This document shows positions 6,328 through 35,525 of a stretch of 64,000 bases of DNA, piece by piece (position 1 is the first letter of the stretch; the number at the start of each line of letters is the position of its first letter). The notes below the pieces were generated by a model. The model did not search any database, was not told where the DNA came from, and saw nothing but the letters and a program-made list of their open reading frames with translations. A program made the translations under genes and the position numbers. The DNA is from Planctomycetes bacterium syqfu (GTDB lineage: Bacteria; Planctomycetota; Phycisphaerae; Phycisphaerales; Phycisphaeraceae), in assembly GCA_020974905.1 (NCBI GenBank), contig CP087563.1:2914001-2978000 (forward strand). Direction: 5' to 3'.

Positions 6328-6798
6328 CTACGCAGTGGCAACCGTTCCACTCGACACCGTCGTGGTTTTGCGTCCTTCGTCCAGGCCCTTGTTGAAGGAG
6401 GCTTCTTTTTCCTTGCGGAGTTTGCCAGAGCCTAGGAACAAACCGAGTAAACCGGATGCAGCAGGTAACATGGGGCCGAGGACGGGGACACCTGCAACGG
6501 TGGGGCCGATCTCATCGAGAGCCGACAGCGACAACTGGTTGACCATGTTGCGGATTTCATTGGCGTGCTCGATGTTGGATTTCCACTGACTGCCAGCGGT
6601 TTGCATGTGCTGATACCAGAGTTGATATTCACTCTCGGCCTCGTTGAGCGAGATGGTGCTGGCCAAGCCGGTTTGCTGTTGGATGGTGTTGGGCGTCTTC
6701 ACATGGATCATGTCGCCCATGTCACAACCTGCAAAACTCAGCAGACCCAGGACAACGAAGGTGAGGATGAACAGGAAGATCAGGTGATTGGTTTTCAT
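6328..6798 (-). CDS. Phage-encoded lipoprotein with hydrophobic C-terminal segment
   Basis: The 156-residue product begins MKTNHLIFLFILTFVVLGLL and then SFAGCD, a type II signal peptide with lipobox S-F-A-G-C and Asp at +2. In proteobacteria Asp+2 keeps lipoproteins in the inner membrane; whether that rule holds in this host is unknown. A helical middle (ESEYQLWYQHMQTAGSQW) is followed by a Gly/Pro-rich hydrophobic stretch (VAGVPVLGPMLPAASG, LLGLFLG) and a basic tail. The gene sits between the tail chaperones and the tape measure and overlaps the upstream stop by 4 nt. It could be a lysis (spanin/holin-like) or superinfection-exclusion protein. Neither is proven. Confidence 0.75.
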   Translation of the reverse strand: MKTNHLIFLFILTFVVLGLLSFAGCDMGDMIHVKTPNTIQQQTGLASTISLNEAESEYQLWYQHMQTAGSQWKSNIEHANEIRNMVNQLSLSALDEIGPTVAGVPVLGPMLPAASGLLGLFLGSGKLRKEKEASFNKGLDEGRKTTTVSSGTVATA

Positions 6799-7082
6799 TG
6801 TGAATTTTTCCTTGATGGAATGAAAGTTTTCTTGAGCAAGGCCATGGCATCTTCGGTGTCCAAAGGGATCACGGACGATGACTGGCCTTGGGCAAACGGA
6901 TCAAAGTCCGCTGCCTTGAACGTGTGGGAACGATTGAACGTGAGTAAATTGGCAAGCAGTGCCATCAGGTTGGATGTATGTTGCCAATCCTGTTTCTGGC
7001 GGGACTGGGCCATCTCGTACAACTCCCGTAAGGTGAAACTTCCGGGGTGGACACCGAGAATCCCTGCCAGTTGCCAGATCAT
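6795..7082 (-). CDS. Tail assembly chaperone-like small protein (second of pair)
   Basis: The 95-residue product (MIWQLAGILGVHPGSFTLRE) has the length and position of the second tail assembly chaperone, just before the tape measure. The motif 'FTLRELYEMAQSRQKQDWQHTSNLMALLANL' resembles short GpT/GP13-like proteins that begin with a Trp or Leu-rich helix and contain 'M...R...W...A.L.A...N'. The ATG overlaps the previous stop (ATGA). In many siphophages these two proteins are linked by a ribosomal frameshift; here they are simply overlapping genes and I see no canonical slippery heptamer. Confidence 0.6.
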   Translation of the reverse strand: MIWQLAGILGVHPGSFTLRELYEMAQSRQKQDWQHTSNLMALLANLLTFNRSHTFKAADFDPFAQGQSSSVIPLDTEDAMALLKKTFIPSRKNSQ

Positions 7083-7522
7083 GTCTTGGCAGGTTGCAGC
7101 AGGTGTTCGAGTTGCTGTTGGAGTTCCGGACTGTCCAGTTGGGCACTGGCGATTTGAAGCGATTTTTCTTCCACCTCGCGAAGCTTGGTCAGGGCCTTGC
7201 GTAACACCTGCCGCTTCGCTGCGGGGAAAAAATCTGCCAACTCCTGGAGCAATGCCGTGGTGGCATGATCGATGACGTCACCAGCAAGTGCCTGGCCAAA
7301 CTGTTCATCGGTGACGTTGGCACTCTCAGCCTGATCCTTGCAGATGGCATACAACACATCGCATAGCAGGATCGGATCGGTGGAGAGTTTTTCCAGCAGG
7401 TGGGACTTGCTGTCCAACACATCCAACAGGTTAACGCCGACGAGTGCCTGCACACGTTTGATGGTGGCAACGGTGATCTGCACCGTCCAGACATGACTTC
7501 CGTTATCGGTAAATGACTGCAT
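7079..7522 (-). CDS. Tail assembly chaperone-like protein (first of pair)
   Basis: The 147-residue product opens 'MQSFTDNGSHVWTVQITVATIKRVQALVGVNLLDVL'. This beta-hairpin followed by a helical body matches the pattern of phage tail chaperones that act on the tape measure. The C-terminal half is charged helix (LRKALTKLREVEEKSLQIASAQL). The ATG shares one base with the tail-tube stop (TAATG) and the stop overlaps the next gene (ATGA), so tube, chaperone 1 and chaperone 2 form a tightly coupled run. Assignment rests on order and fold-like pattern, not on a conserved catalytic motif. Confidence 0.65.
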   Translation of the reverse strand: MQSFTDNGSHVWTVQITVATIKRVQALVGVNLLDVLDSKSHLLEKLSTDPILLCDVLYAICKDQAESANVTDEQFGQALAGDVIDHATTALLQELADFFPAAKRQVLRKALTKLREVEEKSLQIASAQLDSPELQQQLEHLLQPAKT

Positions 7523-7746
7523 TAGCTGCCACCTCCATCCACCCAGGTCGGCGCGCGGGTGACATACGTGGGCTTGACGGTCACGTTGACGGTGATGGCT
7601 TCTTCGAGTGGTTCGTTACGGGTGAAGTTGGTCACCGAGAAGTCGGCGTCGAGGCCGCTACCGCCTTCGCCATCGAGGACTGCCATGGCAATCGCCTCGT
7701 TGTTGAAGTAGGCATTCTTGATGGCACCAAAGCCTTCGTCCTCGGT
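7522..7746 (-). CDS. Major tail tube protein, exon 2 (after group II intron)
   Basis: After predicted removal of the intron, exon 2 supplies 74 residues beginning TEDEGFGAIKNAYFNNEAIA and containing 'GLDADFSVTNFTRNEPLEEA' and 'ITVNVTVKPTY', the typical C-terminal half of a siphovirus tail tube. It follows exon 1 (68 residues ending FTLMWD) in phase 0, giving a 142-residue protein. Without splicing the only local reading frame would start inside intron sequence and give an unrelated N-terminus. The first exon base is the A opposite 7746, directly after an intron end in AC. The stop shares a base with the next gene's start. Confidence 0.85.
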   Translation of the reverse strand, partial: TEDEGFGAIKNAYFNNEAIAMAVLDGEGGSGLDADFSVTNFTRNEPLEEAITVNVTVKPTYVTRAPTWVDGGGS

Positions 7747-7784
7747 GTGGTGTAGGCCAAGGAGTTGCACCCTGACCCCAACCC

Positions 7785-7821
7785 CAAACCGGGCGTGCAA
7801 GTTTCCAAGCACCCGGCTTTC
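7785..7821 (-). ncRNA. Group II intron domain V hairpin
   Basis: On the minus strand the sequence AAAGCCGGGTGC, a GGAAAC loop region and GCACGCCCGGTTT form the hairpin. It has the catalytic AGC near its base, a GNRA-like GAAA loop and a C/G-rich stem. It lies 16 nt after the reverse transcriptase stop and about 40 nt before the 3' splice site, as in standard group II introns. Confidence 0.85.
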
Positions 7822-7837
7822 CCGATATTTCTTGACA

Positions 7838-9505
7838 TTATTTTGCATAGGTCTTTTCCTTGTGACAAGACAGACACAGGGTCTGCATGTTTTCCAGATA
7901 ACTTGCCTGCACAAAGCTGGCAAAGCTTTCAACGGGTTTGATATGATCGGCCTGTGAGGTTGCTGCTGTGATCGGCTTGCCGCATTGGCTGCATATCATG
8001 CCGTCACGTGCCAGGGCCTGATGCTTCAGGTCCATGCCGCCGGGTCTGTTCTTTTCGTGGATGTAACGATCGCCGTCCACTTCAGAATCAGATTCGTAGT
8101 CGCCGTTGCCCGGTACATAAGGTTCGGGGCCACCTTGGTCCCATGCCATGCGTATGTCGCGGAATTTCGCGAGCGTGCATGTTGAGAACATTCCAATGTA
8201 GCTTCCGAATGTGTACCCGCGAAGGCACTTGGCAGTGGATATGTCCTGTTTGCGACATATCGTTTTGACGGCTATCCAGTAGGCATGATGGTCCAGCAAG
8301 GACGACACGACTGAATAGTTGTGGGCGATCTTGTAATAATGAGCCCATCCCCGTACAACTGCCGAGCCCCGGATCATGCGGACGGCAATCGACTCCTGTT
8401 GGGGTCGATGCCGAATCGCTTTCGCCAGGCTTCGCTTGGCGTTGGCCACTGCTTCCAGCGGAACCTTGATCTTCGCAGCGTGGTGACCACGTCTGACAAC
8501 ACCCATTTCCAAGCGGAAACTAAGAAATTCAAAACCCTCGCGGACATGCGTGATGTGCGTCTTTTCCTCCGAGAGTCGCAGGCCGCAGTTGACGACAAGG
8601 AACTCACGGATTTCCTCACGGAGATTCTCGGCATAACGCTTTGAAGCCCGCGTGATGAACACACACCAATCATCGGCATAGCGGACAAACCGAAGGTTCG
8701 GCTCCCGGTTATACCATGCTCGCCGACTGGCCAGATTGTGTGAACCCTTTGCATGCAGGAACCAGTCCAGCTTGTTCAGGACCACGTTGGCCAGTAGCGG
8801 TGAGACGACACCGCCTTGAGGCACGCCTTTCTCAGTGGGATGGACGATACCCTCAATTTCCACGCCTGATTTAAGGAACAGACGAATCAGATTGAGGAAT
8901 TTGTTATCCATCACCTTTTCCCGCAAGGCTTGGAGTATTGCCTTGTGCGAGATCTCATCGAAACACGCCTTCACATCGCCTTCGATCACCCATGTGAACT
9001 GACGGTTCATCAGGTGTTTGCATCGAAAGATGGCATGATGCGTGCTTCTGTTGGGCCGAAACCCGTAGGAATCGTCATGGAATTCGACTTCAAAGATTGG
9101 TTCGATTGCCATACGGACAGTCTCTTGCACAATCTTGTCCCGCAGGCATGGAATACCAAGCTTACGCGGTTTCCCGTTGGGCTTGATGATCACACTGCGC
9201 CGCAGGGGCTGAGGACGATAGGTTCCATGTTTCAATTCCAACCGAAGTGCTTCCAGTTCCTTGGTCAGTGTTCTTTCAAACACGGACACGGTGATACCGT
9301 CAACACCCGGTGCTTTGCCTCGGGAACGTGTCATCACGCGAGCACAGGCTTCTGCGATCCATTGCGGATGATGCAGCAGGTCCATCAGGTTCCGCACTCG
9401 GCCATCGTACGAATTGACCGGAAACAGAGGTGATCCTGATTCCCTGTGTTGCTTGTGCATACGTGACTGTTCCCACAGTCTTCTCTGGACTTCTTTCACG
9501 TTCAT
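7838..9505 (-). CDS. Group II intron reverse transcriptase/maturase with HNH endonuclease domain
   Basis: The 555-residue product carries the group II RT domains in order. 'GKAPGVDGITV' is near residue 65. 'RKLGIPCLRDKIVQETVRM' and 'YGFRPNRSTHHAI' follow, then 'GVPQGGVVSPLLANVVLN'. The catalytic 'FVRYADDWCVF' (YADD) is near residue 280. A maturase X domain includes 'VRGWAHYYKIAHNY'. A C-terminal HNH zinc finger has 'CSQCGKPI', 'ADHIKP' and 'CLSCHKEK'. All catalytic residues I looked for are present, so the intron may be mobile. The start is the ATG at 9503-9505, behind an AAGGG site. The gene lies in domain IV of the intron, transcribed with the host gene. Confidence 0.95.
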   Translation of the reverse strand: MNVKEVQRRLWEQSRMHKQHRESGSPLFPVNSYDGRVRNLMDLLHHPQWIAEACARVMTRSRGKAPGVDGITVSVFERTLTKELEALRLELKHGTYRPQPLRRSVIIKPNGKPRKLGIPCLRDKIVQETVRMAIEPIFEVEFHDDSYGFRPNRSTHHAIFRCKHLMNRQFTWVIEGDVKACFDEISHKAILQALREKVMDNKFLNLIRLFLKSGVEIEGIVHPTEKGVPQGGVVSPLLANVVLNKLDWFLHAKGSHNLASRRAWYNREPNLRFVRYADDWCVFITRASKRYAENLREEIREFLVVNCGLRLSEEKTHITHVREGFEFLSFRLEMGVVRRGHHAAKIKVPLEAVANAKRSLAKAIRHRPQQESIAVRMIRGSAVVRGWAHYYKIAHNYSVVSSLLDHHAYWIAVKTICRKQDISTAKCLRGYTFGSYIGMFSTCTLAKFRDIRMAWDQGGPEPYVPGNGDYESDSEVDGDRYIHEKNRPGGMDLKHQALARDGMICSQCGKPITAATSQADHIKPVESFASFVQASYLENMQTLCLSCHKEKTYAK

Positions 9506-10228
9506 CGGAAACCCTTCCAATTGTTAAACCTTTCCGTCGTCCAGAACGAAACATCCTGCCTCCCTTCGCCATGTGGACGGCTTTCCCGTCCTCGGACTAC
9601 TACGGAGGCTCCGCCACTTGGTCGCCTCATCGGTGTGGATTCAATCAATTCCATATGGATCGACCTATCCGTGTGAGCACCGTTTGCCGGACCGTCCGGC
9701 GTTCTACTCGACCAAGCTTCACTGGTTCCTTTGCTGACACAATTCGCTTTCGCGTAGGTTCCGACTCTCGGGGCACCCAACAGCGTTCCGCTGCTCCTCC
9801 AAACACCGTCAGATAGTTGACCACTCTGACGACTACGGAACTCCTGCGAGTTCGTCAGGACATTCGACTGGAACAATATCGTTTGTCCGTTTGGATCATT
9901 CCCTATTCTGGACATTACCCCAGACGGCTTCTGTGTTATCAGGAATGAGGCTCTCATTTTCCGAAGGTGCAAGTCAGTTTCCTAATTAAGTAACCATACG
10001 AAAGCACTACCTTGAGAGACTGCCACGGCTAAGAAGCATTGCCTGTGTCTCCCGTTGTCCGGGGAGCTCTTTTGCCGAACCGGCTCACACATTCCGGTCG
10101 ACTTACCCCGTAGGTACGGTGGACGGCCAAACGTCCACGGTGTGCGATCACACATTGTCAAGCAAAGTATCTCGTGCTGTTGATTGCTTGTTGCCAAGCA
10201 CTCAAGCAGCGCGATACATCAGTCGCAC
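9506..10228 (-). ncRNA. Group II intron 5' ribozyme region (domains I-III)
   Basis: These 723 nt hold no believable gene; the open frames on both strands lack ribosome sites and look random. By position they form domains I to III of the intron RNA, from the GTGCGAC 5' end to the RT start. I did not fold the RNA. Confidence 0.75.
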
Positions 10229-10432
10229 ATCCCACATGAGCGTGAACTCGACACTGCCATTCTTGAGCGTAGCGATGGTAGCACGCCAACCATTACTCGC
10301 TCTCGTCGTGACATCGGCCTCGTTGGTCTCGAGGTTAAGCGTGACATCCTTTGTGTTTGTCAGCTCACTTGTTGCGGTTGTGCCGGCCGCGCCGTAGTAC
10401 AACTTGGCCTGCATCCCTAAACGGATGGACAT
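10229..10432 (-). CDS. Major tail tube protein, exon 1
   Basis: The 68 codons from the ATG opposite 10432 encode MSIRLGMQAKLYYGAAGTTA, then 'TNTKDVTLNLETNEADVTTRASNGWRATIATLKNGSVEFTLMWD'. The segment 'N.KDVTLNLE..EADVTTR..NGWRA...TLK..SVEF.M.WD' is the conserved N-terminal half of a siphovirus tail tube. The frame runs eight codons into the intron and then hits a stop, so unspliced mRNA gives a truncated, tail-less protein. Spliced to exon 2 it reads ...FTLMWD-TEDEGFGAIK. It sits upstream of the tail chaperones, as expected. Confidence 0.9.
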
Positions 10433-10468
10433 AAAAAATCTCCTATTTTGAAGGGTTATTTGTGTGGT

Positions 10469-10864
10469 TTATCGAATCGAGCCTGCCCAGAATCGCGGCA
10501 GACGCGGTAAGTTTTTATTCAGTGCTGGCCCCATCAACGCACGTTTTGGGTAACGATGTCCTCTAAATACGCCGCCGAATTCGTGAGCCATCGCTGACGA
10601 GCCAACGTGAGCGAAACCGGGGCCGATCAGGACACGGTCGTTGCCTTCGCGGGCATAGACGATGGCGCGCCGCAATTGGCCATGTCGTGTACGCGGTGGC
10701 GAACCGGGTGGCGCATAACGTTTGCTCCGTCGAATGCTACGTCGTGCGGTTAACCGAATCGCTGCACCTGCATGGCCCAGACTTTGGAAACTCGCCTGGT
10801 CCATCTTCTGCCGAACGAGTTTTTTGTTGAGCCCGTTATGTGGTTTAAAGTGAACTCTGAGCAT
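10469..10864 (-). CDS. HK97 gp10-like / minor tail completion protein
   Basis: The 131-residue basic product contains 'HAGAAIRLTARRSIRRSKRYAPPGSPPRTRHGQLRRAIVYAREGNDRVLIGPGF', the core of phage head-tail completion proteins of the gp10 type, followed by 'MAHEFGG' and a C-terminal 'RYPKRALMGPALNKNLPRLPRFWAGSIR'. Such proteins form the neck/tail-completion ring. It lies between a terminator-like gene and the tail tube. The start is 5 nt after the preceding stop. Confidence 0.75.
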   Translation of the reverse strand: MLRVHFKPHNGLNKKLVRQKMDQASFQSLGHAGAAIRLTARRSIRRSKRYAPPGSPPRTRHGQLRRAIVYAREGNDRVLIGPGFAHVGSSAMAHEFGGVFRGHRYPKRALMGPALNKNLPRLPRFWAGSIR

Positions 10865-16201: not shown

Positions 16202-18490
16202 TTACCGACGGCCTTGTTGCAGCTCAGACAGCTTCAACCGTTTGACAGGCGTTCTGTTTGAACCGGCAATCCCAGTGAGACTCGCCCCTTGAATACTCGC
16301 TGCCACAGCACAGCCCACCAGGCAATCCAGCCAATGATTGTCGGGACGGGTAGCGCGGAGTTTCCACTCATCGACGATCCGATCGCGGGCCGTAGTCTTC
16401 ACACGGAACTCCGCAGTAAGATGGTCAGCAAGCAGGCGGTGCTGAACTGAGTCGCGGCCAAAAAGGCTCAAGCAACCGGGATCACCCATCACTACACCCA
16501 ACCGTGCGTGAATAAAACTTTTCCAGTAATTGGTGTCCACCAGAACATGTCGAACCTGCCGACGTCCAGTGGTATTGGGAATCCGCCAGTGATGCCCAAC
16601 CCGGTCACCACGTTTGCGTTTGTATTCACTGAAGGGAATACCCGAAGCACCCACATAACGACCATGGCTGGGCAATAAGACTGACGCATAATCGCTCTGC
16701 CGACAGAACTGGTAAACCACATCGGTGGACTGTCCCCAGTTGGCGTCAATCATGCAGCGATCAATTCGCATATCAGCACCATCTTCACGACGGTACACCA
16801 TGGATAATCGCTCGGATGTCAATTGCTCCAGGCCGTGATAAATCTGACCTTCCAAGCCTGCACCGGGTTTGATGCGTTTAAGTGTGGATCGAATGTCGTT
16901 GAGTGTGAAGTAGGATCGTTTCTGATCGGGCCACGTGCCATAGTCCAGCACATAGCCAGTAAAATCCTCCTCGAACCCGCAAAGCATCCAGTAGAGAGCT
17001 TTCTGCTGAACGTCAATGAACATCGTCAGGTGATTACAACCAATGGGGATGGCTGCGCGTGCATAGCCGTTGGTCTTGGCAGCAATCTCATCGGCAGTCA
17101 GCATCTCTTCACCGATGGCTTCGACAATCGGTTCGTTCTGATATTCCGCAAAGAATGCAGATTCATCACGCAGTCGCAGATTCATCGCATGCTGCAAAGC
17201 CGACAGTTCGTCTTCGTTGTAACGCTGTGGCCATGCGACAATACTGCCGGTGTCCATAGCCTGCCTGTGATCACGGTAAAATTCGGTCGCTTGTGAACCA
17301 TCACCATCATTACGTAAACTGTCGGCGCGTATTTCCGCATACTTCGCCCATAACTTCTCCGCATTGGAGTTTGGGAATGAGTACACCATCTTCGTCCGCT
17401 CGCCTTGCCACTCAGGATGTTTGTCCCGATCAAGAATGTTGTCGGCCATATCACCAGGCCGGATCACCGTACAGGCCATGAGCCCAGCGATCTTTTTACC
17501 CGGGCCAGCCATGCCCAATACATCACCAGCCAGGATCGCTTCACGTCGTTGACTCTGCGACGGTGACCATGCCGACTCGGTGGTTTGCGGGTCATCGACC
17601 AGAACGAGTTGCGGGCGCACGACCTGCCCATCGGCGCGGGCATAGTTCTGGCCGCGAATATCGCTGCCCTTCATACCACTGCTGGATATGACGATGCCCG
17701 ACGATAGACTGCCTTCGATCACCGGCAATACCACACGATCCGATGACCAATCAATACGCGTGGGTTCACCTTTATACTTCTGCCCCTTCTGACGATTGGT
17801 GATCCGCTCCAGACACCTGATGGGATATGTCACCTCGGGAAAATCTTCATGCAACAGCGGGTTGGTCTCCAACCAGATCTTGATGTTTTCCAGCAGGTCC
17901 CGGGCGCGTTCAGCACTGGCAGCAACCAGACAGATAAAGGGTGACGCGCCGATCAATGCTGCCCACAACACCGCAGTCTGGCAACAAACCGTCTTTCCAC
18001 TTCCGCGCGGCATCGCCATGGCAAACAGGCCACCGGTACGGACAGCCTTCTCGATCTTCTCAATCACGCGAAGGTGATCGTCGGACCACTGTAAATAGAA
18101 CACCTCAGCAAAATACGTTTCACAGAACCCTCGAAAAGATGCGATTGCTTGAGCTTTTCGATCTGGATTTACGACTGCTGGAATTTCACCGATGTCTTGG
18201 GCTGATCGTACGGCTTCTGCTGCACGTTCAGCTTTGCGGGCTTTCTGCTCTTCATAACTCAATGGACCCGACTTGGGCTTGACATATTCCAACGTCAGCC
18301 ATGCGGCGTAGCGGAACAGATCAACCGTCTGCGGGTTTGATGGATCACTGATGCTGTAGCCCGCGCGATTGCGGTGCCGACGCAGTTGGAATTCCGTCAA
18401 TGGCTCAGCATTTGGAATGTCGATGGCATTGACGATCCGCAACAAATCCGCAGGTCGAAGCTGGCGTGGGTTGAAGGATTTTTTACTCAT
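16202..18490 (-). CDS. Terminase large subunit (GpA-type ATPase-nuclease)
   Basis: I start at the ATG 18488-18490 (MSKKSFNPRQLRPADLLRIV), which overlaps the preceding stop by 8 nt, giving 762 residues. The ATPase domain shows Walker A 'FAMAMPRGSGKTVCCQTAVLWAALIGASPF' near residue 175 and Walker B 'LVLVDDPQTTESA' near 300, followed by a C-terminal nuclease region ('LTMFIDVQQKALYWMLCGFEEDFTGYVLDYGTWPDQ', 'DANWGQSTDVVYQFCR' and 'DRIVDEWKLRATRPDNHWLDCLVGCAVAASIQG'). It packages phage DNA through the portal. The length exceeds lambda gpA (641) because of an extended N-terminal region. Confidence 0.93.
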   Translation of the reverse strand: MSKKSFNPRQLRPADLLRIVNAIDIPNAEPLTEFQLRRHRNRAGYSISDPSNPQTVDLFRYAAWLTLEYVKPKSGPLSYEEQKARKAERAAEAVRSAQDIGEIPAVVNPDRKAQAIASFRGFCETYFAEVFYLQWSDDHLRVIEKIEKAVRTGGLFAMAMPRGSGKTVCCQTAVLWAALIGASPFICLVAASAERARDLLENIKIWLETNPLLHEDFPEVTYPIRCLERITNRQKGQKYKGEPTRIDWSSDRVVLPVIEGSLSSGIVISSSGMKGSDIRGQNYARADGQVVRPQLVLVDDPQTTESAWSPSQSQRREAILAGDVLGMAGPGKKIAGLMACTVIRPGDMADNILDRDKHPEWQGERTKMVYSFPNSNAEKLWAKYAEIRADSLRNDGDGSQATEFYRDHRQAMDTGSIVAWPQRYNEDELSALQHAMNLRLRDESAFFAEYQNEPIVEAIGEEMLTADEIAAKTNGYARAAIPIGCNHLTMFIDVQQKALYWMLCGFEEDFTGYVLDYGTWPDQKRSYFTLNDIRSTLKRIKPGAGLEGQIYHGLEQLTSERLSMVYRREDGADMRIDRCMIDANWGQSTDVVYQFCRQSDYASVLLPSHGRYVGASGIPFSEYKRKRGDRVGHHWRIPNTTGRRQVRHVLVDTNYWKSFIHARLGVVMGDPGCLSLFGRDSVQHRLLADHLTAEFRVKTTARDRIVDEWKLRATRPDNHWLDCLVGCAVAASIQGASLTGIAGSNRTPVKRLKLSELQQGRR

Positions 18491-18704
18491 CGTCGGCCTC
18501 CATCTCCGGTCGGGCCAGGAATGCCACGTAATCAATCAGGCTGAATGTGCCATCGGCGCGGAGCAGTTGGCCATCATCAACGACCTGTTGAATCTGCTCT
18601 TCATCGATCCGGCGGTTGAACGCTTTGGACAGAATCTGAGCCGTCAGCGGCACGGTCATTGCCGTCATTCTCAATGATTTTGGACTATCTATAGCTTGTG
18701 TCAT
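18483..18704 (-). CDS. Small protein upstream of terminase, candidate small subunit
   Basis: The 73-residue product (MTQAIDSPKSLRMTAMTVPL) reads 'LTAQILSKAFNRRIDEEQIQQVVDDGQLLRADGTFSLIDYVAFLAR'. The first half looks like a helix-turn-helix that could select a DNA start site, as terminase small subunits do. It overlaps the terminase start (ATGAGTAA) and is the first gene of the minus-strand late block; the region 18705-18805 must hold divergent promoters. The small-subunit role is inferred from position. The ATG at 18702-18704 is preferred over a TTG just upstream. Confidence 0.6.
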   Translation of the reverse strand: MTQAIDSPKSLRMTAMTVPLTAQILSKAFNRRIDEEQIQQVVDDGQLLRADGTFSLIDYVAFLARPEMEADDE

Positions 18705-18805
18705 CAATTTTCAAAAACACCTTAAAAACAAGGGTAAAAGTCGCATTATTCGCTTGTAATCCGTCTCGAATGATGGCTTCATGTGTCTATAGAAAGGACA
18801 TCAAC

Positions 18806-20085: not shown

Positions 20086-21480
20086 TCATGCCATCACCTT
20101 CCCCTTCACCCCGGCGTTCGTCGGGGTTTTATCAGTGCCTGCGATGCGTTGAGCTTCCTTGCCAGTAAATTCCTCCCATCGTTTGACGATCACGTCGCAA
20201 TAGAGCGTGTCAAGTTCCATCAGGTAGGCATGTCGATCGGTCTGCTCGCAGCCCATGAGTGTTGAACCGCTACCACCGAAGAGGTCAAGAACGTTCTCAC
20301 CGGGCTTGGATGAATACTGAATGCAGCGAACAGCCAACTCGACAGGTTTCTCCGTCAGATGCACCATGGCTTGTGGATTGACCTTCTTCACATGCCAAAG
20401 ATCAGTGGCATTGTTTGGCCCATAGAAATGGTGACCTGCCCCTTCCTTCCAGCCATAGAAGCAAATTTCAAATGCTCCCATAAAATCCTTGCGGGTAAGA
20501 ACAGGATGCTGCTTATCCCAGATCACACCTTGTGAAAAGTAGAGTCCCGCAGCTTTGATCGGTGCAGGATAGTTGCCGAGATTGGCATAACCGCCCCATA
20601 TGTAGAACGACGCCCCGGGCTTCATGACACGTGACGCATTGGCAAACCAGGCCAGCAGCATGTTGTCAAAATCCTCGTCACTGACAAAGTCGTTGGCCAA
20701 GGGGCGATCCTTGGCCCGCATTTTTTGCTTGGCTTTTTTGCCGTCGGTCGCACCACGTGCTTTGTCAAAACTCTGGTGATGAAGTTGGGCTTTCTTATCT
20801 CCAAATGAGCTTAAACCCGCTGCTATAGCGGTGTTACTGCGAGGCTCAACTTTCACATTGTACGGCGGATCGCTTGAAAATAGATCAATAGTTGCACCAT
20901 CCAACAGGCGATCCAAGTCGTCAGGAGAACTGCTGTCACCGCACATCAGTCGATGGTTACCAAGAATCCAGATATCACCAGGCTGAGTGGTTGCGGCATC
21001 GGGTGGTTCGGGAATCGAATCAGGATCAGTTAAACCTTCCGTCACACCCTGAGCCTGGCTCATCAACTGTCCCAACTCCTCCTCATCGAAGGCCAAAATG
21101 TCCATGTCGAATCCACCTTCACGCAGATCGTTGAGTTCAATAGGCAGGATCGACATGTCCCATTCGGCGATTTCCCCAGTGCGGTTGTCGGCAAGACGAT
21201 AGGCACGCACCTGATCCGGTGTCAGGTCAGTGACCACATGCACGGGCACTTTGGCCAAGCCAAGTTTTGTTGCAGCTTTCCAGCGCGTGTGGCCTGCGAT
21301 GATCACACCGTCTTCGTCCACGACAATAGGCTGTCGAAAGCCGAACTCCGACAGTGACGCGGCCACGGCATCCACGGCCTTGTCATTCAAACGCGGGTTA
21401 CGTTCGTATGGCTTGACGTCTTCAATCTTGCGAAGCTCGACTTTGAAATTTGAAGTAACGATGTCTTGGGTTGCGGTCAT
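20086..21480 (-). CDS. ParB-like nuclease domain fused to DNA N4/N6 methyltransferase
   Basis: The 464-residue product has two parts. Residues about 10-100 are a ParB/Srx N-terminal domain ('VELRKIEDVKPYERNPRLNDKAVDAVAASLSEFGFRQPIVVDEDGVIIAGHTRWKAATKLGLAKVPVHV'). Residues about 170-445 are a methyltransferase with the catalytic 'LFSSDPPYNV' (DPPY, adenine or N4-cytosine) ahead of the AdoMet site 'VLDLFGGSGSTLMGCEQ', the beta-class order. No restriction enzyme lies nearby, so this is probably an orphan phage methylase that protects or marks phage DNA. AAAGGAAAAGT precedes the ATG. The two domains are often found fused in phages. Confidence 0.92.
   Translation of the reverse strand: MTATQDIVTSNFKVELRKIEDVKPYERNPRLNDKAVDAVAASLSEFGFRQPIVVDEDGVIIAGHTRWKAATKLGLAKVPVHVVTDLTPDQVRAYRLADNRTGEIAEWDMSILPIELNDLREGGFDMDILAFDEEELGQLMSQAQGVTEGLTDPDSIPEPPDAATTQPGDIWILGNHRLMCGDSSSPDDLDRLLDGATIDLFSSDPPYNVKVEPRSNTAIAAGLSSFGDKKAQLHHQSFDKARGATDGKKAKQKMRAKDRPLANDFVSDEDFDNMLLAWFANASRVMKPGASFYIWGGYANLGNYPAPIKAAGLYFSQGVIWDKQHPVLTRKDFMGAFEICFYGWKEGAGHHFYGPNNATDLWHVKKVNPQAMVHLTEKPVELAVRCIQYSSKPGENVLDLFGGSGSTLMGCEQTDRHAYLMELDTLYCDVIVKRWEEFTGKEAQRIAGTDKTPTNAGVKGKVMA
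20108..20130 (+). terminator. Rho-independent terminator of the plus-strand cassette
   Basis: ACCCCGGC-GTTC-GTCGGGGT followed by TTT forms an 8-bp stem with a tetraloop (one G-U pair). It ends the four-gene cassette and lies inside the 3' end of the convergent methyltransferase gene. Confidence 0.7.
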
Positions 21481-21940: not shown

Positions 21941-24292
21941 TCAGTCGTTTTCACTCGTGGTGGCTTGCAACGACTCGTCCTGCGGGTTCATATTGCGAGG
22001 CAGTCGGTACATCCGAACCGGCCAACCGGGTTTGTTGGTGGTTACGATTTCAATTTCACCTTGTTGACTTAACGTGTCCATGAGCATGGCAAAGCTCTTG
22101 GCATCGGTCTTCATGCGTTTGAGCAAGGTACTGTGTGACAGTTCATGATCCGGCGATTCACGCAGCTTCTGAATGATCTTCAAGCATTCAGCGTGAAACG
22201 GATTCTCGGCTACGTGACCGGCAGCCATGAACAACATGCGGCGTGTCTGGTACGTCACAAAACGTGATGCCCACTGGACGGCAGCAAGGCTGATCATCGG
22301 CTCTTTGTGGTTTTCACTGATGGCGTAAAGCAAAGCCAGCTTGCGTGTCTGTTCACTGACACGTCCCCAGACCGTTGTGCCCACCGAATCATTGTTGGCT
22401 TCGGCCTTCGCATATTCTGCTTCAGCTTCTTCACGTGTCTGCACCATGAAGCGCCGTGCATCATCGCTGCGTTCCACCACCACCGGATCAGGATGCCAGT
22501 CCATCAGATTGCCGGGACCGGGTCGGAATTGTGACCACCATTGAGCAGCTTCCAGAACACGTGGTGGGAGTTCACGGATCGACGGTTCCTGTCCTGTGCC
22601 ACGTTGCCCGGCTTCGAGAATGATCATGCGAGCGAAAAAGCCATTGGTCAGCATGCGTTCACTCAAAGCATCGTAATAGTGATTGGGAATGGCCGTGCCG
22701 AAGACCACCAGGTTGGGTTGATCAATGACACCAGCTGGTTTGGTGGGATTGCCAGCCTTGCGCCGCATGGGAAAGACGCTGTTGGACGCTGAATACATCG
22801 TCAGCAACGTACTCATGATCGATTCATGCCTGGCATCCTTGGCCTTGTTGATCGACTGGAGCATGCCATCGATTTCATCGGTTTGGAACATCATGCATGG
22901 TGATTGGTACAACGCATCCTGAATACCTTCACCGCTGGCAAACCGTTCACCCAGTGCATCAGATAAGCCGACTTCGTGGATGATGCGGGTATTGAGCTTG
23001 CGGGGCCAGTCCTTGCCCGAAGCGGAATGGGCCAAGCCCAGCAGGTAAATGTTGGTACGGTTATCACCATCGTCACGCACCTTGCGCCCAGCCAGAAATG
23101 CCAGCAATGTGAGCGCGCCGCAAAATGCCATGACTGGATTGGGGTACGGAGCGGTTTCCAGGCAATGGTTCATAACCTCACTGATAAACCCCGGCACATG
23201 AAGCATATCATCCGGCATCGGGCCGGGATCGGGAACATAGATTGGCTTATCAACATCATCCATTTGTCCGGGTCGACCAAGCAGCCCGGACAGGTCTACA
23301 TCCGAGTGATCATTGAGATCATCACCAAACCCGTACTTGGCTAACGTACGGGTGGCAGCAGCAAAATCACCGCCATGTTCCAGCAGTGAATACACAGCAA
23401 AGGGTGAATAACCACGGTCGGGTTCAAACGGATCGGCATTAGACGAGAATACATAAAACACACGATCCTTGAGTGTAGCTGACCAGCCGGTGTCTTTGCC
23501 GGGGCGACGCCAGTATTCGTTTTCACCGGGTTCTGCCAACGTCCAACCGTGCGTGCGTAGCAGGTCACGCACATCACCACGCTGGTTGAAATCATCACCT
23601 GGCCTGTGGGCATTGTGCGAATTGTCCGTCGCACAATTGCTCTTGTTCGAAGACATCTGGCACATATGCGAATTGTGGTCCGATGTGCCGCAAATATTCG
23701 AATTCTCTGCCACTGTCTGGTTGACATTCGCACCATCGACTACCGGTGGTAAATACTCGTTAAGTTCCCATGCGGTTTTCAACAACGCATCACGCTGGGC
23801 CTCAGTCAAAACGGGTAAGTCGCATAAGTCACCCTGCATCATTTCATATCCCGGTGTCGGTGAACAGAGGAACAATCCACCTTCACCACGGGTTTCGATC
23901 AAGGTATTAACTTTGTCATCGACCTTGCGTTGGGCCAGTTTGATATTGCCGCAGACGGGAACATCGCAGCGGTAAATCACGTGCATGCCCCCGGAAGGTG
24001 TCGATTCGATCACCAGGCGATCGCGGAGATCAGGATCAATGCGATCCATCCACGCAGGGATCAATTCACCGCCACCGTCAAAATCAATGATCTCCAGATT
24101 GCCGGAGACGGTACCACAGATAATGCACAAAGCATCGTTCCATGGCCACATGGCAATTTCATCGCATTGAGGTAACCGCTGTTGATATTGTTTCCATTTG
24201 CCAATGGCTGGACGTTTTTCAGTACGAATGGCAGGTAAGACAGACAGGCCAGCATTTAAATAGGTTTGAGCAATGGGTAAGGTTTCGGACAT
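21941..24292 (-). CDS. Phage prim-pol/DUF3987-type helicase (replication protein)
   Basis: I start at the ATG 24290-24292 (MSETLPIAQTYLNAGLSVLP), giving 783 residues; upstream ATGs in frame remain possible. Residues about 1-190 are an archaeo-eukaryotic prim-pol: 'ICGTVSGNLEIIDFDGGGEL' (D-x-D metal site), 'ESTPSGGMHVIYRC' (SGGxH). A Cys/His/Asn-rich linker and a winged region follow. The helicase half has a variant Walker A 'LGLAHSASGKDWPRKLN' and Walker B 'MMFQTDEIDGML'. One protein would thus prime and unwind phage DNA. It flanks the candidate origin and is coupled to the Dam-like methylase gene upstream. Confidence 0.85.
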   Translation of the reverse strand: MSETLPIAQTYLNAGLSVLPAIRTEKRPAIGKWKQYQQRLPQCDEIAMWPWNDALCIICGTVSGNLEIIDFDGGGELIPAWMDRIDPDLRDRLVIESTPSGGMHVIYRCDVPVCGNIKLAQRKVDDKVNTLIETRGEGGLFLCSPTPGYEMMQGDLCDLPVLTEAQRDALLKTAWELNEYLPPVVDGANVNQTVAENSNICGTSDHNSHMCQMSSNKSNCATDNSHNAHRPGDDFNQRGDVRDLLRTHGWTLAEPGENEYWRRPGKDTGWSATLKDRVFYVFSSNADPFEPDRGYSPFAVYSLLEHGGDFAAATRTLAKYGFGDDLNDHSDVDLSGLLGRPGQMDDVDKPIYVPDPGPMPDDMLHVPGFISEVMNHCLETAPYPNPVMAFCGALTLLAFLAGRKVRDDGDNRTNIYLLGLAHSASGKDWPRKLNTRIIHEVGLSDALGERFASGEGIQDALYQSPCMMFQTDEIDGMLQSINKAKDARHESIMSTLLTMYSASNSVFPMRRKAGNPTKPAGVIDQPNLVVFGTAIPNHYYDALSERMLTNGFFARMIILEAGQRGTGQEPSIRELPPRVLEAAQWWSQFRPGPGNLMDWHPDPVVVERSDDARRFMVQTREEAEAEYAKAEANNDSVGTTVWGRVSEQTRKLALLYAISENHKEPMISLAAVQWASRFVTYQTRRMLFMAAGHVAENPFHAECLKIIQKLRESPDHELSHSTLLKRMKTDAKSFAMLMDTLSQQGEIEIVTTNKPGWPVRMYRLPRNMNPQDESLQATTSEND

Positions 24293-24345
24293 AAAACAAT
24301 GTATCTCCATGAGATTGAGTGAATCGGTATTGAATGCTGGTGATG

Positions 24346-24981
24346 TCATCGAGCGATGTAGCAGACATTGCCCAGATCATTAAACGCTGTGGTAAAGCCA
24401 ACAGTGTTTTCACCGAGATACAGCACTGCCTGGCCCTGCCTCGGTGTGACGGGTTTGTCGGGATGCCAGAATTGCACACGTCCAATCGGCAAACACACTG
24501 CCGACGCGACAGACAGCAACGCCTGGAACCATCTTGTCTCCGTCGCGTTGTTGACCAGAACAACCGCCTGTGTGACATGGCCCGCCAGATATTGCTCCAC
24601 CAGCTTTTCGCAAAACTGCTGAATGAGTGTCCGGGTATACGGCGGATTCATAAACACGCGACCGAACCACGGCTGATCCAGTCCATCATCTTCAACGGTG
24701 TAATATTGGGCAGCGTCAACGGCTTGGTTGGCTGCATGACATGATGCCGGATCAAGATCAATCCGGCCCATCACATCAGCAGCACGCTGGGCATAAACGG
24801 GTGGGGTGTACCATTCACTTGCAGTTGGCGCATCCGCAAGAGCATGTTGAGTGACCGATTGGCATGCTTGACGAATTTGTCGAGTTGTCGCATTTTTCGG
24901 CAACAAACGTGCAGCATGCACGATGATGTGTTTCGATGAAACGGAGTAGCTTGAGTTGTTTTTACAACTTGCAGTATGCAT
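24346..24981 (-). CDS. Phage Dam-like DNA N6-adenine methyltransferase
   Basis: I start at the ATG 24979-24981 (MHTASCKNNSSYSVSSKHII) because GAAAGG lies 6 nt upstream; the frame is open further up. The 211-residue product has the phage Dam signature 'SEWYTPPVYAQRAADVMGRIDLDPASCHAANQ' and the catalytic 'FGRVFMNPPYTRTLIQQF' (NPPY), then 'AVVLVNNATETRWFQALLSVASAVCLPIGRVQFW'. It lacks the first 50 or so residues of long Dam forms, as expected for this family. It would methylate adenine in phage DNA and protect it from host enzymes. No restriction partner is nearby. Confidence 0.9.
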   Translation of the reverse strand: MHTASCKNNSSYSVSSKHIIVHAARLLPKNATTRQIRQACQSVTQHALADAPTASEWYTPPVYAQRAADVMGRIDLDPASCHAANQAVDAAQYYTVEDDGLDQPWFGRVFMNPPYTRTLIQQFCEKLVEQYLAGHVTQAVVLVNNATETRWFQALLSVASAVCLPIGRVQFWHPDKPVTPRQGQAVLYLGENTVGFTTAFNDLGNVCYIAR

Positions 24982-24991
24982 TGGTAACCTT

Positions 24992-26728
24992 TCAAAAGGG
25001 AATGTCATCGTCATCGGGCCAGTTGTAATCCGGCTCGTCAGGAGCGTTGCCGGCAGCGACTGCCGTAGGGATTGCTCCAAGTTCGTAACGGGTAATGCGA
25101 TCAAATTTTTCACCGGTCACCGAGCGCACAGTGATGGTTAACGGTTGAGCCAACACACCGTTTTCGGCTAACTCGACGGCCTGTTCCACGGTATCGGGCA
25201 TGGGTTCGCTAGACCGGGCCTGCCACCAGGTGCTGGCTTTTTGCCAGGCATAACTGCCCTTGGGATGCGCGACACATATCCATTCGCTGTGGTATTCGTT
25301 AAATCCACAGCGGTAATCGACACGCAGTGTCTTGGGATGTTCCGGTGGCGCGCCACGTTTGGTGTGGATGCTGTAATAGACTGAACTGACGTCGTAATCG
25401 GTTTCAGTTACTTCACCGGATAACACACCCGCCGTCGAGGCACTGCCGTCATGTTTTTCCCGCTCCGGCGGTGGAAACTCATGACCGCAGTCCGGGCAGA
25501 TGCTGTAGGATGCATGGATCAATGCCTGGCAATTGGGACATTCTTTGGCCGGCAGCTTCATTGCTGCCTTTGCGCTCCGATTTATCCTTGATCTGTAAAG
25601 CATCGACCGGACCATGCCGCAGGATGTTGCCACCGAAGTCCAACACGAGGCAGTTGGTTTTGTCGGGATGCAGTCGGAAGCCACGGCCAACGGATTGATA
25701 AAACAAGCCCGGTGAATTGGTCGGACGCAGGAGCACAACGCAATCGATGATGGGCGCATCGAACCCGGTTGTCAGCACATTGACATTGACCAGATATTTC
25801 AGATCACCATTCTTAAAATCGGTGAGTGTCTTGTCCCGTTCAAAGGGCAAGGTTTCACCGCAGACAAATCCACACTGGTGACCCAATTCCTCCAAAATGC
25901 GTTGCACATGCAAAGCGTGTTTGACACCTGCGGCAAAGATCAGCACCGAATGACGGTCACCCGTCTGCTCGAGGATTTCCCGGCAGGCCGAGTGGACGAG
26001 ACCATCGTCATCCATCAGTGCTTCAACTTCACCGGCAATAAATTCGCCGGCTCGGCTATGCAGGTTGGATGTATCAGCCTTACGACGCCCAGCCTTGGTG
26101 ACAAGCGGGCAGAGATAACCCTGGGCTATCAATTCCCGGACACCAACTTCATAACACACATGATTCAACAGATGATCCGGAGCCGGACCACAGATCGTCC
26201 CACTGGTCATGCGATACGGCGTGGCTGTCAATCCGATGAGCCGAACATTGGGATTCACTACCTTGGCGTCAGCCAAAAACTGCCGGTACATCCCTTCGCC
26301 ACCGGAACCACCCGTCGGAATCATGTGTGCTTCATCGACCAGAATGATGTCAAAAGCATCCAGTTGAGCTGCACGTCGATAAACCGATTGAATCCCGGCC
26401 ACGATGATCGCATGGTCGGTGTCCCGGCTTTTCAACCCCGCCGAGTAGCACCCGATCTGGTGCCACAGATCGGGTGCCATGACGTGGAGCTTATCGACGG
26501 CCTGCTCAATCAATTCCTTGACGTGCGCGAGAACCAGAACACGACCGTCCCACTTCTGCACAACGTCCCGGCAAATCGCACCTAGGCACGCGGTCTTCCC
26601 CCAGCTGTCGGGATGACAACACAGGGATTGTCATCCCGACAGCGCAGATGCTCATACACAGCATCAACTGCTTCTGCCTGGTACGGACGCAAGGTGATCA
26701 CAGGTTGTTTAGTGCAAACCTGTGTCAA
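24992..26728 (-). pseudogene. DEAD/DEAH-box helicase interrupted by two frameshifts
   Basis: Three overlapping frames together make one about 570-residue SF2 helicase. Part 1 (TTG start at 26728, overlapping the ParB-like stop, TTGA) reads 'ITLRPYQAEAVDAVYEHLRC' up to 'CVVIPTAGG', the start of Walker A, then shifts. Part 2 continues 'KTACLGAICRDVVQKWDGRV', 'IILVDEAHMIP', 'LIGLTATPYRM', 'LKYLVNVNVLTTGFD' and 'SVGRGFRLHP', then shifts near 25560. Part 3 holds a zinc ribbon, 'KECPNCQALIHAS' with 'CPDCGHEF', and a C-terminal domain ending at 24992. Part 3 also has its own ATG (25561) after an AAAGG, so it could be made alone. One extra G in a five-G run repairs shift 1, and loss of one G in GCCGGCC repairs shift 2. 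Real mutation or sequencing error. Confidence 0.8.
26604..26643. repeat. Perfect 16-bp inverted repeat inside the helicase gene
   Basis: GCTGTCGGGATGACAA and TTGTCATCCCGACAGC, separated by 8 nt, form a perfect hairpin directly beside the five-G run where the helicase frame breaks in Walker A. On the coding strand it encodes the conserved RDDNP-CVVIPT stretch, so it may be partly coincidental. Confidence 0.75.
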
Positions 26729-27549
26729 TCGATCACCTCCTCGGGCAACATGAGTTGCTCGCTTGTCACCGAACGAAGGGCTGTGCAATCATTTGAGAGT
26801 CCTTTCTGGGACCGGAAAATTCGATTCAGTTCAGATGCGACCTGGCGCATGTAGTCTTCGCCGTAGATGCTGATCATGCTCCGGGCCGCTTGGGTGGGAT
26901 TTTTCAGGGGTAGCGAGATGGCCCGCATGGGAACGGGGGCGTTTTCGCTGTGACAGGCTTTGGGACGATAAGCGTTTTTGCCAAAATGCGGTGTCTTGGA
27001 TTTCGATGCACGACCGATGTTGCCCGTTTTCATTTGAGCAATTGTGCCGTGCTTGGTTTTGTAAGTTCGCTTTTGTTGCTCCAATTCAGAATTTTTACTT
27101 GCACATTGGGCAAGTGATGCACGGTACCGTCGAATCGTTGTATTGCACACACCACATTGCCGGGCAATTTCTCTATTCGACCATTGGCCCCACTCTTCAT
27201 CATCCAGCAGGGTTTGAATGGCTTTACGCTTATCCTCATTGGTCCGGCGCAGGCCATGCGTGGCATTGGCACCGACGGAATACAAAATCGCGTCACGACG
27301 CGTGCCCGGCTTGACATCGACCGCAATCGCTTTGCATTCGATCCGTTTGCTGGCCCAGTACCGATGGAAGCCATCAGCAAGCCAGTATGTTGAACCGTCA
27401 TGGAACACAGTCACCGGTGGCAGATCGACACCTTCGTTGTACAGCTCGGCATACTCGGCCACGACATCTTCATCAGTGGCCACACGCGGCTGCGTGCCAC
27501 CATCAATACGAATCTGATTGAGTTGGAGTGTTTGGATTTCAGTTGTCAT
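26725..27549 (-). CDS. ParB-like nuclease/partition domain protein
   Basis: I start at the ATG 27547-27549 (MTTEIQTLQLNQIRIDGGTQ), giving 274 residues, although the frame is open upstream to 28053. Residues about 8-95 form a ParB/Srx domain with 'TQPRVATDEDVVAEYAELYNEGVDLPPVTVFHDGSTYWLADGFHRYWAS' (the D-G-F-H-R box). 'GANATHGLRRTNEDKRKAIQTLLDDEEWGQWSNREIARQCGVCNTTIRRYRAS' is a helix-turn-helix that would bind DNA. The C-terminal 100 residues are basic and low in known motifs. Phage homologues are thought to act in DNA replication control or regulation rather than plasmid partition. It overlaps the next helicase gene by 4 nt. Confidence 0.82.
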   Translation of the reverse strand: MTTEIQTLQLNQIRIDGGTQPRVATDEDVVAEYAELYNEGVDLPPVTVFHDGSTYWLADGFHRYWASKRIECKAIAVDVKPGTRRDAILYSVGANATHGLRRTNEDKRKAIQTLLDDEEWGQWSNREIARQCGVCNTTIRRYRASLAQCASKNSELEQQKRTYKTKHGTIAQMKTGNIGRASKSKTPHFGKNAYRPKACHSENAPVPMRAISLPLKNPTQAARSMISIYGEDYMRQVASELNRIFRSQKGLSNDCTALRSVTSEQLMLPEEVID

Positions 27550-28026
27550 AAAGTTGATTACTTTCAAGGCTGGACATCGGGCTACCACATAACGGGCAAC
27601 GATGAAGTGGGTACTCATGGATTCGCACGACAAGTTGGCCACCGGGGATCGGGAGTCTGCGACGAGTGACAAGCAAATCAACTTGCGAATCGTCGAGATA
27701 TTCAACGCGTTAGCAAGTGACGATCTGAGTGCATGGAGGCAAAGTCGATATCGAACGACATCCCCGGCAAGCAGGCTTGAGCCCGCCTGGTTATCCGTTT
27801 CGTCTCTGACAAGAATATCACCGTCCCGTTGACACGCATTATTCAACGGAAAACCACGGCGGCGGGAAGTAGGGTATGCGGTTGAAGGTGTTTCAAGGGG
27901 CTCAAGGAATCGCTGTGCTACCGATCTCGATTCCCCGCCCCCCAAAACTTGCTGCCACTGGCTCAGGGCAGCGGTGCGATCGGGACGTGACTCAAGCCAC
28001 TCCCAAAACCTCACCATCCTCGGCAC
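27539..28026 (-). other. Doubtful coding stretch upstream of the ParB-like gene
   Basis: One frame (28026 to 27549, GTG behind GGAGGTTGTTG) reads 'MVRFWEWLESRPDRTAALSQWQQVLGGGE' and 'VAQRFLEPLETPSTAYP', then 'DVVRYRLCLHALRSSLANALN', which looks protein-like, and runs without a stop into the ParB gene. A second frame (27709-27539) reads 'DLLVTRRRLPIPGGQLVVRI' and 'HRCPLCGSPM', with a zinc-ribbon look, and its stop overlaps the ParB ATG (ATGACAACTGA), a typical phage coupling. The simplest view is one phage gene broken by a frameshift near 27700. Two small genes are also possible, but the second frame lacks an ATG. Confidence 0.35.
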
Positions 28027-28510
28027 CAACAACCTCCGAATGAGTGACAACATTACAGCAACACATCAGCCATGAAGCTGATGGGTATCGCACGTTCTGG
28101 ACCACGTTGGATTCCTTTCCCCGGCCATGAGAAGACCAGTCAATAAGACCACCCCGCCATCTTGTGGCAGGCAAACTTACAGCAAATGGCGCGCCGAGGA
28201 ACGGATTTTGAGAATATGTTGAATGAAGTGATATATTGAAATGGGCATGCTGCAATGACTGCCACAAATGACAATACGACATGCCGATCTGTCATGCTGG
28301 CAGACCGCTTTATATATCTTGAATCATCACCATCAAAACATACATATCGCCATCATTGACACCCTTTTTCGCCTGATCAGGCTTACCCCAAAGGGTATAT
28401 ATAACGAATATATTTATATAATACCAATGGCCCTTGAAAACATATATTTATATTGATATTTTGTTACCCCGCCTGTCTATTTGTTCCCCATTTTTTAACA
28501 GGAGTTCCCC
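28027..28510. other. Intergenic region at right end of prophage, no gene seen
   Basis: No believable gene. The right half is AT-rich (TATATATAACG, TATATTTATATAATACC) and must contain the promoter of the AT-hook gene. The prophage boundary may lie here or just to the right. I could not identify an att repeat, since the partner end is outside the window. Confidence 0.5.
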
Positions 28511-28924
28511 ATGACAACATCCAATGTAGCAATCGAACTGCGCAGGCTTGTGCAACAGCTTCATAACGAGCGTGCAGAACACGTTAATGCTATCGAGGCC
28601 ATTGATCAGACGTTCCAAGAATTGGGACTTGATGCGCACAAGACAACCGTCAAACCACGACGCGGACGTCCTTTCGGCAGCAAAAGCACTGTAAATAATG
28701 GGGCAATTGGCAAATGCAAGATACCTACAGTCACTGCTGACGCATTTGTCTTGTCGTTCATTCAAGCCAATCCTGATTGCACAACGGCTCAAGTCAACGA
28801 ACACTGGATAACGGAAGGCCGTAACGGCAAGGCCGATCAGGCTCTGTTCAAACTCACCAGGAATGGTCAGATTTCTCGCAAGAATATTAAGGGACGGCGA
28901 GGAAGTATGTATACCATAAAATAG
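28511..28924 (+). CDS. AT-hook/coiled-coil small DNA-binding protein
   Basis: The 137-residue product starts MTTSNVAIELRRLVQQLHNE. Residues about 5-40 form a coiled-coil helix (LRRLVQQLHNERAEHVNAIEAIDQTFQEL). 'VKPRRGRPFGSKST' is an AT-hook (RGRP core) near residue 50. Residues about 75-137 ('ADAFVLSFIQANPDCTTAQVNEHWITEGRNGKADQALFKLTRNGQISRKNIKGRRGSMYTI') look like a winged helix. The layout (oligomerisation helix, AT-hook, winged helix) suggests a nucleoid-associated or regulatory protein, but no named family is certain. It has an AGGAG site 9 nt upstream and its own terminator, so it is a single-gene unit at the prophage border. Confidence 0.75.
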   Translation: MTTSNVAIELRRLVQQLHNERAEHVNAIEAIDQTFQELGLDAHKTTVKPRRGRPFGSKSTVNNGAIGKCKIPTVTADAFVLSFIQANPDCTTAQVNEHWITEGRNGKADQALFKLTRNGQISRKNIKGRRGSMYTIK

Positions 28925-28953
28925 TTATTATTGCCACAAATTAGGTCATATAT

Positions 28954-28977
28954 AACCCAGCTTGACGCTGGGTTTTT
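28954..28977 (+). terminator. Rho-independent terminator of the AT-hook gene
   Basis: AACCCAGC-TTGAC-GCTGGGTT followed by TTT gives an 8-bp stem, 30 nt after the stop at 28924. Confidence 0.85.
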
Positions 28978-29280
28978 AATATATATATTTAACTATTTCA
29001 AATCTCCATATCCATATTAAGTAAGACCGTTTCGGCGGCGGTACAAATCTACGGACGTTCAAAATCACCATGCACCGTCTTGCAGCGTAAAACCTAACCC
29101 ATATCTACATATTTACTGATTGATAAATGAAGATCAAAATACTGCCACACCTGCATTAAAGTGTTTTTGAACGGAATTAAATAAAATCAGGCATTTCAAA
29201 AAACGAAAACGTATCAAACCAGCATTAATCTATTTTCTAATTGGTCCACCTACGTGAATTTTGTACATGCTGTTTCTTTA
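28978..29280. other. Intergenic region, no gene seen
   Basis: No gene, tRNA or clear repeat. It is AT-rich and separates the plus-strand AT-hook gene from the 3' end of the sugar operon. A terminator for the operon would be expected, but I see no strong hairpin with a T-run on the minus strand. Confidence 0.5.
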
Positions 29281-30621: not shown

Positions 30622-30659
30622 GACGGCTTATTCCTATCAAAAATATCTTTGAAATTCAT

Positions 30660-32024: not shown

Positions 32025-32044
32025 GCTCGAATTCAACTTTCAAA

Positions 32045-32887: not shown

Positions 32888-32911
32888 TGAACTTGTTCAC
32901 TTTCTTATGAC

Positions 32912-33949: not shown

Positions 33950-34023
33950 GGTAAAAACCTCGCTCTGATTGAGCTTGTTATTGATTCGAGAAACGACCGG
34001 GGCGTCCGGGAAACTTCCAGGGA

Positions 34024-35463: not shown

Positions 35464-35525
35464 GTTGGTAAAACCTTTCAAGTGGTCATGGTTCACGCTG
35501 CGATGTTTATCCACGCAGCATCCAT

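Follow-up and report, generated by a model that had tools for sequence, protein, structure and literature searches.

A group II intron lies on the minus strand of the window (the whole 64,000-nucleotide stretch analyzed, part of a 7.38-Mb single-contig chromosome). It runs from position 10228 to position 7747, is 2482 nt long, and starts with GTGCGAC and ends with CTACACCAC. These ends (GTGCGAC...CAC) are of the GUGYG type on the 5′ side and the AY type on the 3′ side, sit exactly at the exon boundaries, and are conserved in relatives of the intron; the boundaries could be fixed because copies of the empty site are available. The interrupted gene encodes a tail-tube protein and is split after codon 68. 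The joined exons encode a 142-residue protein that matched Pfam Phage_tail_2 (9e-9) and the PHROG major tail protein, and the neighboring genes (terminase, portal, protease-capsid fusion, and tape measure) are those of a siphovirus-type prophage. The features are listed in Table 1.

Table 1. Features of the intron locus, related prophages, and target genes of related introns (a slash in a motif marks the insertion point)
Feature	Position or contig	Strand	Detail and basis
Group II intron	7747..10228	-	2482 nt; empty-site comparison, Rfam RF00029, ends conserved in relatives
Exon 1, tail-tube gene, codons 1-68	10229..10432	-	ORF from ATG 10432; frame same in 8 uninterrupted paralogues
Exon 2, tail-tube gene, codons 69-142 and stop	7522..7746	-	Joined product matches Phage_tail_2
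Ribozyme domains V and VI	7747..7821	-	RF00029, 50.4 bits; two-sided changes
Intron-encoded protein, 560 aa	7838..9520	-	RT with YADD, maturase domain, HNH endonuclease; Pfam and TIGR04416
EBS1 GTTCCA, intron nt 355-360	9869..9874	-	Pairs with IBS1, 6/6 including G-U; covaries with target
Delta nucleotide T, intron nt 354	9875	-	Pairs with first base of exon 2 (delta prime, 7746)
EBS2 ATGAGA, intron nt 272-277	9952..9957	-	Pairs with IBS2, 5/6; covaries with target
IBS1 TGGGAT, 3′ end of exon 1	10229..10234	-	Pairing with EBS1
IBS2 GCTCAT, in exon 1	10236..10241	-	Pairing with EBS2
Tract identical to B2754, 289 nt, upstream of insertion	10229..10517	-	Proposed 5′-exon co-conversion tract; flank comparison
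Uninterrupted ParB-type DNA methyltransferase of window phage	20086..21480	-	Empty sites DPPYN/V at 20857/20856 and IWD/K at 20515/20514
Small gene next to terminase	18483..18707	-	Apparent homologue interrupted by related intron in L076 (by eye and gene position)
Eleven related prophages	G000:C1 2.68-3.70 and 5.70-5.78 Mb; window 1-28000		Tail-tube flanks ~80-88% identical
Relatives after DPPY motif, ParB-type DNA methyltransferase	L066, L067, L068, L074, L075, L078, L080, L081, L086		
Relative at second methyltransferase site, VWD/KQHPVLTRKDF	L089		
Relative in tail-tube gene, DVTIT/LD	L070		
Relatives in tail-tube gene, EADV/TTR	L071, L073, L085; L084		L084 by exon 2 only
Relative probably in tail-tube gene, PLEE/	L083		Exon 1 only
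Relative in small gene beside terminase	L076		By eye
Relative in gene resembling window ORF 6795-7082	L072		By eye
Relative in gene of unknown function	L079		
Element of ~11.2 kb in tail-tube gene	L160 (record G682 22000-35500), L142, L143, L147, L150		

The intron and its exon junction

The RF00029 match covers the last 75 nt of the intron, up to its exact 3′ end, and is the only Rfam match at gathering score within the window. When 23 introns were compared, 10 of the 24 domain V/VI pairs showed changes on both sides. Rfam models of domains I to IV, which cover known diversity only partially, gave no match to the intron at E values up to 1, and the 5′ 689 nt folded more stably as a single sequence than shuffled versions (z, -3.5). 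The intron-encoded protein matched RVT_1 (8e-35), GIIM (7.5e-5), and HNH (1.5e-7) in Pfam and scored above the equivalog cut-off for group II RT/maturases (TIGR04416, 5.7e-103). It is related in sequence to LtrA (PDB 5g2x; E, 6e-49), and its catalytic residues are invariant across 18 relatives. The preliminary description of this DNA had placed a complete group II intron in the tail-tube gene, and its coordinates proved exact; the ribozyme match, the three protein domains, and the conserved ends all agree with it, and the strand, which it did not give, is added here. A distant group II-type RT was also observed elsewhere in the chromosome (G000:C1 1066157-1067230), with 37% identity and an open frame of 921 aa.

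The same description held that the exons join in phase and exactly. Extra residues between WD and TED were sought, and none were found: the eight uninterrupted paralogues in the chromosome align through the junction (WD or WN, then xxDxxF) with zero inserted residues, as do 32 homologues on viral contigs. The claim of an exact, in-phase junction therefore stands. A search of an annotated phage collection with the tail tube gave no match. The unspliced message would yield a 76-residue product, and the tail-tube message is predicted to be spliced.

Occupied and empty prophages in one chromosome

The tail-tube gene is present 11 times in related prophages of this chromosome, uninterrupted in eight and split by the intron at the same codon boundary in three. 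The three intron-bearing prophages are that of the window (D), B2754 (B), and I3699 (I), and in all of them the exons are intact and the intron-encoded protein is open. The intron in the tail-tube gene is not an assembly oddity, because one genome holds it in three divergent prophages, each time at the same site. Two of the prophages, E3070 and G3177, are ~100% identical around the tail-tube gene. Elsewhere in the window, a ~450-base segment (53297-53749) recurs near several prophages of the main cluster, and a transposase ORF is found on the plus strand at 54145-55485 (PHROG transposase, 6e-61).

The introns of D and B differ at 1 of 2482 nt, and their RT dS is 0.003 against 0.48 to 1.10 for the flanking genes; between D and I, the corresponding values are 0.062 and 0.67 to 1.07. 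Since the D and B introns are only 1 nt apart, the movement is dated as recent, and these values indicate that the intron moved recently between prophages of the chromosome. Upstream (5′) of the intron, identity between D and B extends unbroken for 289 nt, but downstream (3′) it stops after 2 nt, and the compared flanks (roughly 9 to 12 kb on each side) contain no further identical D-B run longer than 61 nt. In the yeast mitochondrial introns aI1 and aI2, retrohoming is accompanied by 5′-exon co-conversion, which leaves one-sided conversion of the upstream flank beside the inserted intron. If an unspliced precursor undergoes target-primed reverse transcription and recombination then takes place upstream, as in those introns, the expected trace is identity on the upstream side only. 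The 289-nt tract thus probably reflects 5′-exon co-conversion during retrohoming rather than ordinary recombination. Unlike the yeast cases, this would be a trace left in nature, between two prophages that share a bacterial chromosome.

Related introns, their target genes, and their guides

Viral and genome contigs were scanned, which yielded ~20 full-length relatives, whose RTs are mostly 57 to 66% identical to that of the window intron (70% in L090), and a genome of the same genus (G001) contains relatives. A repeat viral scan with RT alignment returned the same contigs again. The clade is rare: almost no new members came from wider searches, which covered 298 and 392 genomes. The target genes were established by joining the exons of each relative, except for L072 and L076, which were assigned by eye; several relatives lie on short MAG contigs, with targets uncertain for L069 and L087 and no matching exon 2 for L083. 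The joined methyltransferase and tail-tube products matched the expected Pfam families (L073 just under the curated cut-off), and wherever the coding context was clear the insertion was in phase 0. The tail-tube insertions are not monophyletic in the RT tree, where they occupy three or more positions; the window intron clusters with L076 and, with less certainty, L079. These placements indicate that the clade has settled repeatedly in phage genes, including those for the tail tube, the methyltransferase, and others. The preliminary description considered the placement unusual on the grounds that group II introns avoid essential genes. This holds for bacterial group II introns in general, and PMC6003770 describes housekeeping genes as seldom interrupted, but it does not hold for this lineage, which is found mainly in phage genes.

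Several contigs showed peculiarities. L083 carries a tail-tube exon 1 ending in FSRSEPLEE/ (~152 and 2593) with no matching exon 2, and may be a chimeric contig or hold a relocated intron. The methyltransferase-site copy at L086:5001-6674 has 3 stop codons in the matched RT stretch, as in a decaying copy or a sequencing frameshift. Automatic alignment placed the 5′ ends of L070 and L072 at AGGTTCC, which was wrong; the reading frames give GTGTGCC and GTATGCC. In two viral records, the tail-tube homologue is split near codon 70, a few codons from the intron site, by the ~11.2-kb element. The element encodes a primase-type protein and a protease-capsid fusion of its own, along with a large serine recombinase whose frame runs on into the 3′ half of the gene, and it looks like a capsid-carrying satellite integrated in a phage tail gene. 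L142 and L143, tried as further introns at the window site, were rejected as examples of this element.

EBS-IBS pairs, whose presence the preliminary description had anticipated, were identified for the intron (7747-10228), with 6/6 positions for EBS1-IBS1 and 5/6 for EBS2-IBS2. Their positions were transferred from the window intron to the relatives through the alignment. Over 8 distinct targets, EBS1 formed 44 of 48 pairs with its own exons, a score equaled in 2 of 40320 exon-intron reassignments. EBS2 formed 39 of 48 (1 of 40320 reassignments); its register was picked by inspecting several of the tested introns, which makes this test less independent than the EBS1 test. When all 797 alignment columns were ranked by their pairing with exon 2's opening base, intron nt 354 came first (18 of 20 introns); this count is inflated by relatedness yet comprises three kinds of pair in unrelated targets. 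A hairpin loop at intron nt 311-318 was tried as EBS2 and rejected, as it did not covary with the targets and nt 272-277 did. L070 and L072, which are outside the guide tests, show 5/6 EBS1 positions and the delta pair in a by-eye reading if shifted by one base. Group IIA introns, including Ll.LtrB, recognize their exons through EBS1, EBS2, and delta. On these pairings, the window intron is assigned group IIA-type exon recognition, with delta adjoining EBS1.

The guides of the D and B introns match their site. The I3699 intron matches its own site poorly (EBS2, 3/6; delta mismatch) and may splice or home less well there; because of this bad fit, its guides may be tuned to another allele. Between D and I, 6 of 13 guide positions changed compared with 56 of 2469 positions elsewhere (p = 3e-7). 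By this measure the guides are the fastest-evolving part of the intron, as retargeting predicts. The guides of relatives also fit empty sites in the window. Those of the methyltransferase introns fit its methyltransferase site (5/6, 6/6, and delta), and those of the EADV/T introns fit the EADV/T codons of its own tail tube (5/6, 5/6, and delta). The L076 guides match the site in the small gene at EBS2 (6/6) and delta, with EBS1 only 3/6. The simple explanation that the occupied prophages are those with guide-matching alleles is not clean on two counts: I3699 fits its guides poorly, and in B or D the transfer has probably replaced the original 5′ flank.

Mobility, alternative readings, and known systems

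It is very probable that the element is a mobile group II intron, recognizes its exons in the group IIA manner, and persists as a selfish passenger of planctomycete phages through splicing and retrohoming. The anatomy, the in-phase exons, the empty sites, the guide-target covariation, the signs of recent transfer, and the repeated settlement in phage genes all point to this reading. The intron would be transcribed along with the late tail genes, and its own maturase would assist splicing of the intron RNA to give an uninterrupted tail-tube message, thereby sparing the host. The excised RNA and the RT-HNH protein would then reverse splice into the same site in uninterrupted alleles of other prophages or incoming phages, and moves to new sites would be rare, occurring once EBS2, EBS1, and delta drift to match. 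We infer splicing, reverse splicing, and use of the HNH nick. Related phages would share virion genes and the motifs of DNA methyltransferases as conserved targets, by the same logic as for group I introns and inteins. The preliminary description had left the intron as either a control point or a selfish hitchhiker in a virion gene; the empty sites, covariation, and recent transfer favor the latter, and no support emerged for a control point; all findings fit a selfish mobile element.

Spread among the prophages of the chromosome by ordinary homologous recombination instead of retrohoming is unlikely. Some prophage pairs do recombine: long identical runs are common to D and F, one of 1632 nt is common to H and J, and the methyltransferase of prophage F, elsewhere in the chromosome, is ~100% identical to that of D. 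However, the sole long D-B identical flank run abuts the 5′ side of the intron and ends 2 nt into exon 2, where recombination into an empty site would normally carry some 3′ flank too, and the spread of the clade to unrelated genes and the guide-target covariation would be left unexplained. Recombination between two already occupied prophages is a possible source of the D-B tract: D, B, and I have the same final 163 nt of intron, so that a conversion with its end in that stretch would leave the same picture, and the D-F and H-J pairs recombine. It is very improbable that the intron is dead cargo that no longer splices and has inactivated the tail-tube gene of three defective prophages. In favor of this reading, I3699 has a weak EBS2 and a delta mismatch, and a chromosome that holds 11 related prophages may well include defective ones. 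Nevertheless, the intron-encoded protein is open in 3/3 copies, the codons that differ in it between D and I comprise 22 synonymous and 8 non-synonymous changes, the D and B guides match their site, all exons are intact, and the single difference between the D and B introns argues for recent movement.

The position of the intron early in an essential virion gene, the 76-residue unspliced product, and the reported inhibition of host gene expression by Ll.LtrB (PMC6003770) would suit a domesticated switch, in which tail production depends on splicing and the prophage is helped to stay silent. This is extremely unlikely, as the intron is absent from 8 of 11 sister prophages, site use varies among relatives, and a mobile element is what fast guide change and recent transfer point to. 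A quite unlikely extension of the selfish mobile intron is that the clade acts as a phage-adapted gene drive in phage-phage competition, in which the RNP would nick or invade uninterrupted genes or mRNA of rivals and the guides would track rivals' alleles. If so, the targets would be the tail-tube or methyltransferase gene of co-resident or superinfecting relatives.

Ll.LtrB of Lactococcus lactis, a group IIA intron, encodes the related RT/maturase protein LtrA, but its host gene is a plasmid relaxase gene instead of a phage tail tube, and the targets of the window clade are phage genes. The introns of Cluster J mycobacteriophages (PMC3706429) likewise lie in virion structural genes (capsid and tail) with intronless relatives, and splicing was shown there; they are group I introns, one with a homing endonuclease, whereas the window intron is a group II ribozyme with an RT-maturase-HNH protein. 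The kind of element is already known, since phage group II introns were reported systematically in 2025 (PMC12350094). Those introns, of types IIA, IIB, and IIC, similarly lie in phage coding genes, some with an RT protein and some in prophages, and their ends were placed by intronless homologues. The window intron agrees with that description, with a phage host gene and 8 + 32 intronless homologues. A word search of the main text of PMC12350094 gave neither Planctomycetes nor a target of the tail, capsid, or methyltransferase kind, and that text describes no clade with repeated phage targets, no occupied/empty prophage set in one chromosome, and no co-conversion tract. A literature search that covered few subscription papers found no description of a phage-specialist clade or of an occupied/empty prophage set. 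What is apparently new is the phage-gene specialization with guide-target covariation and retargeting, the transfer within a chromosome, and the set of occupied and empty prophages with a co-conversion trace.

Like group I introns and inteins, the lineage appears to make conserved phage genes its habitat, and it appears to switch targets through three short guide elements. With three occupied and eight empty prophages and target alleles that match and do not match the guides, the chromosome is a natural experiment. It makes testable whether placement in a virion gene is tolerated through efficient splicing, how group II introns spread in polylysogens, and 5′-exon co-conversion in bacteria.
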